DNA of 64,000 nt from Candidatus Hydrogenedentota bacterium (GTDB lineage: Bacteria > Hydrogenedentota > Hydrogenedentia > Hydrogenedentales > JAGMZX01), in assembly GCA_029556545.1 (NCBI GenBank), contig JAKQEQ010000029.1, positions 1-64,000 of the forward strand, given 5' to 3'. The notes under the pieces were generated by a model that did no database searches, had not been told where the DNA came from, and saw only the letters and a list, made by a program, of their open reading frames with translations. Numbering within the stretch: position 1 is the first letter of the stretch; every line of letters starts with the position of its first letter. This document shows positions 13,355-16,336 of the stretch, piece by piece. The translations under genes were made by a program, and so were the position numbers.

Positions 13355-16336
13355 CTACGCTTGCCCCGGGCAGAAGCCGTCTTCCGTACCTTCCTCCGGG
13401 CAGAAATGGTAACCGTTGTATTGGTAGAACTGGATTGTTCGCAACAGCCCGGTCAGGTGGACCATCCAATCCACGCGACCATCGCCGAAATCCGCGGCGT
13501 GAGGACAGCAATCATGATTCGTGCCGGCCCCCGGCACGTAGCCGTCTTCCGTTGTCGCCGGGTCGTCCGCACAGTGGAATCCGCGCGAGTTGTAAAACTG
13601 GATCACGCGCAACAATTCAGACATCTCAATCCGGTAATCCCGCGACAGGTCCGCTGTGTAATACTCGCTGTAACACGGATCACCTTCACCTTCACCTTCA
13701 CCTTCGCCTTCACCTTCACCTTCGCCTTCGCCCTCGCCTTCGCCCTCGCCCTCACCCTCACCCTCACCCTCACCCTCACCCTCACCCTCGCCTTCCCCTT
13801 CCGCACCCGGACCGCTGGATACCACGAGGTCCACCGCGCTGCCACACGCTGCCAACTCCCCTGGAAGCGGCATCTGGCTGATAACCTCCCCGGCGGGAAC
13901 CGTCACGCTTGCTTCCTCCGTCACCGTGCCTAATACGAGGTTGACCTCCGCGATCGCGGTCTCCGCCGCCTCGAGCGTGAGCCCCGTGAGGTCCGGCACC
14001 GTCACCTGGCACGGCCCTAGCGACACGACCACGTCCATCGGCACACTGCATAGGATCAACTGCTCGGGAAAGGGTAGCTGGCTGATGATTTCACCTTCCG
14101 GTACGGTTTCATTCGTCACTTCCGTTACCGTGCCCAGAACAAGATGCAGCGACGCCAAGACCGCTTCCGCTTCCGCGAGCGTCAAGCCGACCAAGTTTGG
14201 CACCGTCGCATAGCAAGGACCCACCGAGATTACGATGTCCACGGGCGTCGCGTACGGCACAGGTTCTCCGGCCGCTGGATTCTGGCCCATCACACGGTTC
14301 TCGTCCACGGTATAGCTGTAGTCGTAGGTTACTGCGCCCACCGCCAGCCCTGCCGCGAGCAGCGCGTTTTCCGCCTGAATTGGCGTTAGCTCGAACAGGT
14401 CCGGCACCGGTACCGCTTCGGGAACGAACTGGGCAATGATCTCTCGATTCTGAGTCATGAATCCCGATACGGTCGGCGAAGTCGCGTCGAAGCCCTCGGG
14501 CAGGTCGCCGTACCAACGCCAGAACACGCGCTCGGCCGCCGGGATCGCCGTGATGCTGAACGGTTCGCCGTCCAGAAACCAATAAACATCGGGCAAGGGA
14601 TCGGTGGTCCCGCCGCCAATCGCTTGAATGTAGAGATACCAGTCCGCCGGGACGAAGTGCGCCGTGATGTCGCGAGCCTGGTCCATTACCAGCGGGAGTT
14701 CACGATTGTAGATGTTCGCGCCCTCGGGCACGTCCCCGGACCAATGACTGAAAATGCCGCTACTGTCTTGAATGGCCCGTAACGTGGGCGTCGCGCCTGT
14801 CGTGTACCCTGTGGTTCCGCTCGGTGACGTGGAGCCTGCCCCGTCTACAGCGGTGCTCAGGTAGAAGCCTGTCGTCGTTACCGTCGGCGTCACTGTCTTA
14901 TTCGCGTCCATCGGGACAGAAAACACAAAGTCATAGGAAGCCACATCGCCGGACCAGCCGCCCCAGAACATGCCGGAATCGAGGCGGAGTTCCGCGCGGG
15001 CGACCCGCCCGTCGAGGTACGCATAGACGCCGGGAGTTGGGTCCAGCCACGACGAACCGCCGCCCGTAATCGGATTGACGGTGAAGCTCCAATCCCCGGG
15101 AACGAACTGCGCGGTAAGCACACGGTCCATGGTCATGTACACCCGATGATGTGTTTCCTCCGGGTCTTCCTCGCCGGGCAGGTCGCCCAGCCACCGATCA
15201 AACGCATCGCCGCCGTCCAGCAACTCCGCGCCGAACTCGGCCTCCCCGTAATCCACAAAGCCGTACACACCTGGCTCGGGGCGCGTCGCTCCGTTACCCG
15301 TGAAACCCAAAGTAAGTTCCCAGTTCGCGTCAATGTAATGGGCCGTGATCACCCGATCCATGTCCATCGACAGACTCAGGCGGTAACTGACCGGACTGTT
15401 CGGCCAGATATCCCCGCTCCAGTGACTGAACGCCCAGCCGTCTACGCCATAAGACGCCTCGACCGTCGCCGTGTCGCCTTCCGTGTAGGCATACTCCGTG
15501 CCGGGGGCCGCGCTGCCTGCGGGATTGGTCTCGCCGACACCCTCGATCATAATGGTCAGCGTTCTCGGCGGCGGCGGGACAAAGACTCCGGTAATGGCGC
15601 GGTCCTGGTCCAGCGTGACGTCAATGGGGTTATCGGTCGCCTCGACGCCGTCCGGCAGGTCGCCTTCCCAATGATCGAACGTCCACCCCTCAAAACCCAT
15701 GGCGCTTAACGCGATCACCGCTCCCGCCGCGAATTGGTACGCACCCGGATTGAAATTGAGCACGCCGTTGCCGCTCACGGCTACGGTAAGCGTGTAGCCG
15801 CTGTCCGCGAAGGTGCCGGTGACGGTCTTATCCCCGTCCATCGTCAACTCCATGAACAGACTGTAGCCGGAGACGTCGCCCGACCAGCCGCCCCAGTAGC
15901 TGCCTGGGTCCGGATTCGCACTCAAGTTCACGGTCCGGCCCGTCAGGACCGCGTGTGCGCCCGGCAGGGGTTGGAGCCAGCCGCTGCCCGCCCCCGCCTG
16001 GACCATCGTGAGCGTATGGTCGCCCGGCGTCACAAACACCGCCGTTACCGTCTTGTCCGCGTCCATGATGATCTGCATGTTCGGGCTCAGACCGGATGCA
16101 TTCCCCTCCCAATGCGAAAAGGCGTAGCCGCTGTCCGGGACCGTATTGGCGCTGATCCAGACCGCTTCCCCCGCGTCATACGGATACGCGCCCTCGGACG
16201 GAAACGTGGAACCCGTGCCGGTCACGTTGATGGTAAGCGTGTAGGTCTGCGCGAGGGCCACGTCCGCCCCGCCCGCCGTTCCAACAACGACCACAAGCCC
16301 CGAGAGGACCGCTGTCAGCATTCTTCCCCGTCGCAT
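13355..16336 (-). CDS. Exported protein: eight InlB-like repeats, three PASTA domains, (Gly-Glu)n linker, paired FYN module
   Basis: A 993-residue exported protein. The ATG at 16336 follows GGAGGG by nine bases and gives a signal peptide ending ADVALAQ. About residues 30-640 are eight repeats of ~75 residues of the divergent InlB B-repeat type, each with a 'HWxG' or 'GWSGD' core and ending in forms of 'DKTVTAVF'. Three PASTA-type domains follow (VPDLFELTPIQAENALL, VPNLVGLTLAEAEAVL, VPDLTGLTLEAAETAI). A (Gly-Glu)n linker covers about residues 845-884. The last ~105 residues hold two copies of a Cys-rich LLRxIQFY module. The domains point to cell-surface binding. PASTA domains are usually on membrane kinases or penicillin-binding proteins, so finding them here without an enzyme is unusual. 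Confidence 0.85.
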   Translation of the reverse strand: MRRGRMLTAVLSGLVVVVGTAGGADVALAQTYTLTINVTGTGSTFPSEGAYPYDAGEAVWISANTVPDSGYAFSHWEGNASGLSPNMQIIMDADKTVTAVFVTPGDHTLTMVQAGAGSGWLQPLPGAHAVLTGRTVNLSANPDPGSYWGGWSGDVSGYSLFMELTMDGDKTVTGTFADSGYTLTVAVSGNGVLNFNPGAYQFAAGAVIALSAMGFEGWTFDHWEGDLPDGVEATDNPIDVTLDQDRAITGVFVPPPPRTLTIMIEGVGETNPAGSAAPGTEYAYTEGDTATVEASYGVDGWAFSHWSGDIWPNSPVSYRLSLSMDMDRVITAHYIDANWELTLGFTGNGATRPEPGVYGFVDYGEAEFGAELLDGGDAFDRWLGDLPGEEDPEETHHRVYMTMDRVLTAQFVPGDWSFTVNPITGGGSSWLDPTPGVYAYLDGRVARAELRLDSGMFWGGWSGDVASYDFVFSVPMDANKTVTPTVTTTGFYLSTAVDGAGSTSPSGTTGYTTGATPTLRAIQDSSGIFSHWSGDVPEGANIYNRELPLVMDQARDITAHFVPADWYLYIQAIGGGTTDPLPDVYWFLDGEPFSITAIPAAERVFWRWYGDLPEGFDATSPTVSGFMTQNREIIAQFVPEAVPVPDLFELTPIQAENALLAAGLAVGAVTYDYSYTVDENRVMGQNPAAGEPVPYATPVDIVISVGPCYATVPNLVGLTLAEAEAVLASLHLVLGTVTEVTNETVPEGEIISQLPFPEQLILCSVPMDVVVSLGPCQVTVPDLTGLTLEAAETAIAEVNLVLGTVTEEASVTVPAGEVISQMPLPGELAACGSAVDLVVSSGPGAEGEGEGEGEGEGEGEGEGEGEGEGEGEGEGEGEGEGEGEGDPCYSEYYTADLSRDYRIEMSELLRVIQFYNSRGFHCADDPATTEDGYVPGAGTNHDCCPHAADFGDGRVDWMVHLTGLLRTIQFYQYNGYHFCPEEGTEDGFCPGQA
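13680..13803 (-). repeat. GGNGAR hexamer repeat encoding a (Gly-Glu)n linker
   Basis: About twenty six-base units (GGTGAA, GGCGAG, GGTGAG) encode alternating Gly and Glu between the PASTA domains and the C-terminal module. On the + strand the tract reads as Ser-Pro, His-Leu or Thr-Phe repeats, which are not genes. Confidence 0.9.

Follow-up and report, generated by a model that had tools for sequence, protein, structure and literature searches.

For freshwater Planctomycetes, a non-cellulosomal envelope complex named the 'planctosome' has been proposed (PMC6461901), and a cellulosome-like complex has been described for Ca. Stygibacter of the Cloacimonadota (PMC8542988). Dual-mode dockerins bind in two ways (PMC8063739). 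A small sample of the literature on Hydrogenedentota held no mention of dockerin or cohesin. The stretch of DNA analysed here (the window, 64,000 nucleotides) lies on contig 36 of a Hydrogenedentota genome of 6.1 Mb in 195 contigs (G000).

Two exported proteins encoded in the window, one with InlB B-repeats and PASTA domains and one with CHRD domains, share a C-terminal module of approximately 100 residues (Table 1), as the initial annotation had noticed. The two copies were identical at 63 of 101 residues (pairwise comparison, E=3e-48). In the first protein, Pfam models recognised six InlB B-repeats (Flg_new_2, E 3e-38) and PASTA (E 4e-34). The position first given for the module in this gene was confirmed, with a correction to the minus strand and the limits listed in Table 1. 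The loop quoted for it, DQDGDFQINLTE, is that of the CHRD protein, and the InlB/PASTA copy has DLSRDYRIEMSE instead. The doubled LxxLLRxIQFYN helix was found in both repeats; repeat 2 of the InlB/PASTA protein has Gly (HLTGLLR) at a position held by Glu in 95 of 97 copies.

Table 1. Coordinates of the module-bearing proteins of the window, their parts, and the dockerin/cohesin-module locus of the same genome
Feature	Position	Strand	Basis
Exported protein with InlB B-repeats, three PASTA, (Gly-Glu)n linker and C-terminal module, 1002 aa	13355..16363	-	ORF; Pfam
Module copy 1	13358..13678	-	62% identity to copy 2; HMM match 13364-13663
Repeat 1 EF-hand-like loop DLSRDYRIEMSE, copy 1	13616..13651	-	sequence
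Repeat 2 loop, copy 1, D-FGDGRVDWMVHLT-G, longer than canonical, last ligand Glu -> Gly	13448..13492	-	sequence
(Gly-Glu)n linker before copy 1, 6-bp tandem repeat, 20 units	13680..13801	-	TRF
Exported protein with GEVED, two CHRD, three (Gly-Glu)n linkers and C-terminal module, 1014 aa	50212..53256	-	ORF; Pfam
Module copy 2	50215..50520	-	identity to copy 1; HMM; AlphaFold2 model
(Gly-Glu)n linker before copy 2, 6-bp tandem repeat	50531..50721	-	TRF
Dockerin/cohesin-module locus of G000	G000:C33:40089-44600 (L259:3323-8116)		conserved cluster

The strand opposite the module also has an open frame, at 13355-13678(+) and at many other copies, and we ascribe this to high G+C codon use; the 88 genome matches obtained with an antisense-frame query were the antisense of the same module and were not regarded as evidence for a second gene. 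Another signal-peptide protein of the window, 34239-36026(-), had sub-threshold matches to NF038122 metalloprotease and choice-of-anchor D. Its tail (Cys, hydrophobic helix, RRR) resembles the tails of anchored cohesins, so that the window has a second class of C terminus, one that anchors in the membrane. Tails of Cys, helix and Arg were also carried by other proteins of the genome, as a class distinct from the module.

Chance does not account for the sharing: with one copy as the query, 109 matches were obtained in the same genome (approximately 106 distinct ORFs after merging), and the module was found in 41 of the 68 genomes of the phylum, at one copy to more than 70 per genome (counts in the richest genomes are at least about 72). 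Most of the ORFs do end in the module (about 93 of 106), the others having it directly after the signal peptide (about 8) or internally (about 5); a script gave 92, 6 and 8, three of its assignments being changed on visual inspection. Typically, 1–5 residues remained after the C-terminal copies, and up to 500 and more followed the N-terminal or internal ones. The (Gly-Glu)n linker preceded the module in 71 of the 106 ORFs, not always, as had been claimed. Matches to TrAA12 were due to these linkers and not to the module. A signal-peptide-like start was recognised in 76 of the 83 ORFs with a complete start by a simple hydropathy test and in two more by eye; the module is thus not one of mainly internal position or of cytoplasmic proteins. 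The ORFs cut at a contig end (23 of 106) were often cut near the (Gly-Glu)n repeat, and such assemblies therefore under-count module genes.

The passenger proteins were very mixed. More than 50 Pfam families were present in each half of the set, none of them dominant, and included P-domain, InlB, CHRD, PKD, Ig-like, LRR, Kelch and beta-helix domains, peptidases C25 and S15, and GDSL lipase. In three beta-helix-like repeat proteins (L101, L133 and L128, on G000:C131, C159 and C170, respectively), several tens of inserted residues keep the two halves of the C-terminal module apart, so the halves are separable.

In sequence searches, the module was absent from more than 300 further genomes outside the phylum; it is lineage-specific, having been found only in Hydrogenedentota among the genomes searched. 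Genomes with low copy numbers retained a protein of approximately 850 residues that has a C-terminal module and a fibronectin-like domain, of the purple acid phosphatase N-terminal kind (L270–L273, L276, L279, L280, L287, L269). This protein, a cohesin-module protein and an EF-hand-rich protein are the small core of carriers. Divergent internal modules were observed in proteins starting with GIPEPxxxLxGxVxD (L282, L283, L284, L293, L297 and L298, from f5, f11 and G005) and possibly represent an early form of the module.

The anatomy of the module was derived from 97 copies. Each half consists of a loop resembling that of an EF-hand, followed by the helix LTELLRxIQFYN and the segment TEDGxxPG. 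The consensus of half 1 is H-[TS]-A-D-x-[ND]-x-[DN]-x-x-I-x-L-[TS]-E-L-L-R-V-I-Q-F-Y-N-S-G-G-[FY]-H-C, followed by TEDGYxPG, and that of half 2 is H-x-S-D-Y-..-D-W-x-I-x-L-[TS]-E-L-L-R-x-I-Q-F-Y-N, followed by TEDGFCPG. With a profile of half 1, half 2 was matched in each of the 97 copies (best E 5e-22), and shuffled halves gave 0/97 matches at E<1e-3. Loop 1 has the EF-hand ligand pattern, with D8 and E19 each in 96/97 copies, N/D at position 10 and D/N at position 12. Loop 2 (D61-Y-..-D68-W-x-I-x-L-x-E75) exceeds the canonical 12 residues by approximately 1–4, and E75 is kept in 95/97 copies. Arg and Gln are near-invariant on both helices. We infer that the module binds Ca2+.

The cysteines vary in pairs. 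Cys 34 and 55 occurred together in 95 copies and were missing together from 2, and Cys 91 and 101 occurred together in 80 and were missing together from 17, in each case with no exceptions; the N-terminal Cys and Cys 56 were jointly present or jointly absent in 87/97 copies. Predicted disulfides would give this pattern of covariation, in which related copies do not count as independent. Copy 2 was modelled with AlphaFold2 at a mean pLDDT of 94.2 and a pTM of 0.86, with helices at 17–28 and 73–85. In a Foldseek search with this model, no significant match to a solved structure was obtained; the best of the 43 matches and approximately 14 of the 43 were dockerins, all at E 2.9 or worse (TM 0.36/0.5).

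The initial annotation had likened the module to a dockerin pair rebuilt with Cys. A match to an already characterised dockerin or enzyme domain, which it had named as a refutation of its proposal, was not found: no Pfam or NCBIfam family covers the module, and no model scored above its cut-off in the two window copies or the 97 copies. The Pfam EF-hand models touched 61/97 copies, all weakly (best E 1.1e-5), and Dockerin_1 (PF00404) touched 13/97 below its curated cut-off (best E 0.018); the Pfam scan gave a Dockerin_1 match in neither window copy. When the module and Dockerin_1 profiles were compared, only one repeat aligned (probability 22%, E 0.001). Matches to GIGANTEA, dynein light chain and calmodulin in a PDB sequence search were rejected as chance or generic EF-hand matches.

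Like dockerins, the module has two tandem, mutually similar loop-helix repeats and belongs to a system with cohesins that includes cohesin-tag fusions; a 12-residue EF-hand Ca2+ loop was found in repeat 1 but not in repeat 2, where the loop is longer. Type I dockerins (PF00404) likewise have near-identical tandem loop-helix repeats with the loop D-x-[ND]-x-[DN]..[ILV]..[DE], are mainly C-terminal on exported proteins, are also fused to cohesin, and within Hydrogenedentota occupy the places of the module on homologous passengers. The module differs from them in being approximately 40 residues longer (about 100 vs 50–60), in the GG[FY]HC..TEDG[YF]xPG segment after each helix, in two to three covarying Cys pairs, in its longer loop 2 and in scoring below the Pfam threshold. 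It looks like an unrecognised dockerin-like variant that may work as a dockerin does, yet it is not filed as Dockerin_1 because it falls below the threshold, has a non-canonical loop 2 and is about 40 residues longer. The tandem EF-hand-like repeats, the covarying Cys, the cohesin fusion and the exchange with dockerin all fit the proposed rebuilt pair.

This exchange was seen between clades. Family f11 was without the module, except for G043 and G058 (one or two copies), and several of its genomes were rich in classical dockerins (63, 47, 25, 20 and 15). No genome had expanded both tags: those with at least 10 modules had at most 8 dockerins, and those with at least 9 dockerins had zero modules. 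These exclusive expansions follow clades and therefore represent few independent events. Among 20 sampled f11 dockerins, 17 ended at most 10 residues from the C terminus and one was behind a signal peptide, much the same as the distribution of the module. For 5 of the 20, the passenger was homologous to module-bearing proteins over 44–95% of its length (E 1e-22 to 1e-73), part of this homology lying in domains that are common in general, for example beta-helix and BNR repeats. A comparable cohesin locus in G064 encodes a signal peptide-cohesin-dockerin protein, with both domains above the Pfam cut-offs. Among module-bearing proteins, it matched the G001 cohesin-module protein at 42% identity; the cohesin tree leaves the orthology of these two protein types undecided.

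A candidate for the cognate partner domain that the initial annotation had proposed to look for was found in the cohesins, module-fused and membrane-anchored, of the same genomes. In G000, five Pfam cohesin matches were obtained, two of them sharing their ORF with a module, and about 6 cohesins were recognised overall, in loci on C33, C9, C134 and C116. The signal peptide-cohesin-module protein (approximately 260 residues) recurred in five families, in a total of about 16 genomes. Its partner domain is a cohesin by sequence and by fold: the three copies scanned scored 30.4, 29.7 and 43.0 bits against the PF00963 cut-off of 24.1, and the G000 model (mean pLDDT 89.3) matched solved cohesins in Foldseek (E 2.4e-11, TM 0.80). 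The cohesin part in family f3 is divergent and was recognised by its position and by a profile built in this analysis.

In the conserved locus of G000 (Table 1), the genes are ordered as a classical dockerin protein of about 180 residues, a dockerin protein of about 510 residues, the cohesin-module protein and two cohesin-like proteins. The latter two have a hydrophobic helix and basic residues within their last 60 residues. When scanned, the first of them and its G031 counterpart were matched by the custom cohesin profile and not by Pfam. G040 and G031 repeat the arrangement, with the cohesin-module gene between two classical dockerin genes and two membrane-helix cohesin genes, and variants occur in part in other genomes (L262, L327, L263, L332, L338, L340). 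No named sorting signal was found in the membrane-anchored cohesins with NCBIfam. Elsewhere, in G001 (L268:3048-13510), an N-terminal module is carried by a Cthe_2159 carbohydrate-binding protein, and its gene adjoins a double-cohesin gene and the gene of a 2184-residue cohesin protein.

The numbers of the two partners are a difficulty. Approximately 106 modules face about 6 recognised cohesins in G000, which speaks against docking into cohesins, and cohesin and module numbers were not significantly correlated across genomes (Spearman 0.22, p=0.07, the module counts of the richest genomes being at least about 72); dockerin number does track cohesin number in the genomes of the phylum (Spearman 0.54). 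The classical dockerins encoded in the same locus could be the true partners of its cohesins. With passengers so many and unrelated, the cohesin fusion could also be one among many. The missing correlation, these dockerins and the mixed passengers favour a docking tag with a non-cohesin receptor (for example S-layer, outer membrane or polysaccharide), for which the cohesin-module protein would be mere cargo. We consider such a receptor unlikely, since the cohesin-module architecture is widely conserved and holds the single module detected in G019, three genomes rich in modules (G003, G029 and G031) have no Pfam cohesin other than the module-fused one, and homologous passengers carry either dockerin or module in the same position.

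The EF-hand-like first loop and the covarying Cys pairs would also fit a stability cap that binds Ca2+, or a domain for minerals or glycans that acts without a protein receptor, and a free binding head would go well with the long (Gly-Glu)n linkers. Such a role appears improbable: the internal symmetry and the near-invariant Arg and Gln on both helices fit a protein-binding face as in dual-mode dockerins (PMC8063739), and the dockerin exchange and cohesin fusion would be left unexplained.

Least probable of all is a C-terminal signal for sorting or secretion that would be recognised and then removed by cleavage, as in type IX or sortase-like systems; a sorting signal had been one option of the initial annotation. 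The near-terminal position of about 93/106 copies on mostly signal-peptide-bearing proteins agrees with it. In its strict form, such a signal is excluded by the copies behind signal peptides (about 8) or at internal sites (about 5 in G000, others in f5 and f11), and after the module there is neither a trailing hydrophobic stretch or anchor nor a basic tail. A search with SprA_N gave no match in G000 and was also silent in every control genome.

We favour, as the most economical reading, that the module is probably a lineage-specific, disulfide-stapled, dockerin-like docking domain by which exported proteins would be plugged non-covalently into cohesin sockets. The shared surface attachment suggested at the outset is consistent with this, judging from the cohesin fusion and the exchange with classical dockerins between clades as read from sequence. 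Passenger proteins would leave the cytoplasm by means of their own signal peptides, and the folded module would then dock them into a cohesin-type socket. Several cohesins of the same genome that end in a membrane-anchoring helix may provide the sockets, and the soluble cohesin-module protein may act as an adaptor, docked itself and offering a further socket. The near-identity of the two module halves would permit two-way binding, as in dual-mode dockerins. In several clades, the module would have taken over the dockerin's job as an address tag on exported proteins. Cohesin as the module's receptor, the pairing of each cohesin with its tag and the location of the complex are presumed.

A broader interpretation, to which we give about even chances, is that a second cohesin-docking pair serves general surface display and not a cellulosome: entire clades would have swapped the dockerin for a disulfide-stapled relative that hangs about 100 mutually unrelated exported proteins on membrane-anchored cohesins, the array being extended by the cohesin-module adaptor. 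The module gives access to approximately 100 exported proteins from a phylum about which little is known. Many of these proteins are difficult to interpret by other means, and the sockets of the tag now have named candidates. If the pairing is true, a whole exported proteome can have its cohesin-dockerin plug rebuilt and exchanged, which bears on the occurrence of many dockerins and few cohesins in non-cellulosomal genomes and possibly supplies an orthogonal, disulfide-stabilised plug for protein engineering.

Among the described systems, the planctosome (PMC6461901) resembles the Hydrogenedentota set in having a signal peptide-dockerin-cohesin adaptor and an anchored cohesin. It differs in that ordinary dockerins are carried there by peptidases, whereas a different tag is found here on about 100 very mixed proteins, and the anchored proteins here are membrane-anchored with a single cohesin. 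The complex of Ca. Stygibacter (PMC8542988) has in common with the present one the C-terminal tags on signal-peptide proteins (dockerins on enzymes there), an anchored cohesin protein and an uncultured phylum; it is built on one large tandem-cohesin scaffoldin and ordinary dockerins, whereas in Hydrogenedentota no such scaffoldin was seen and the tag is another.
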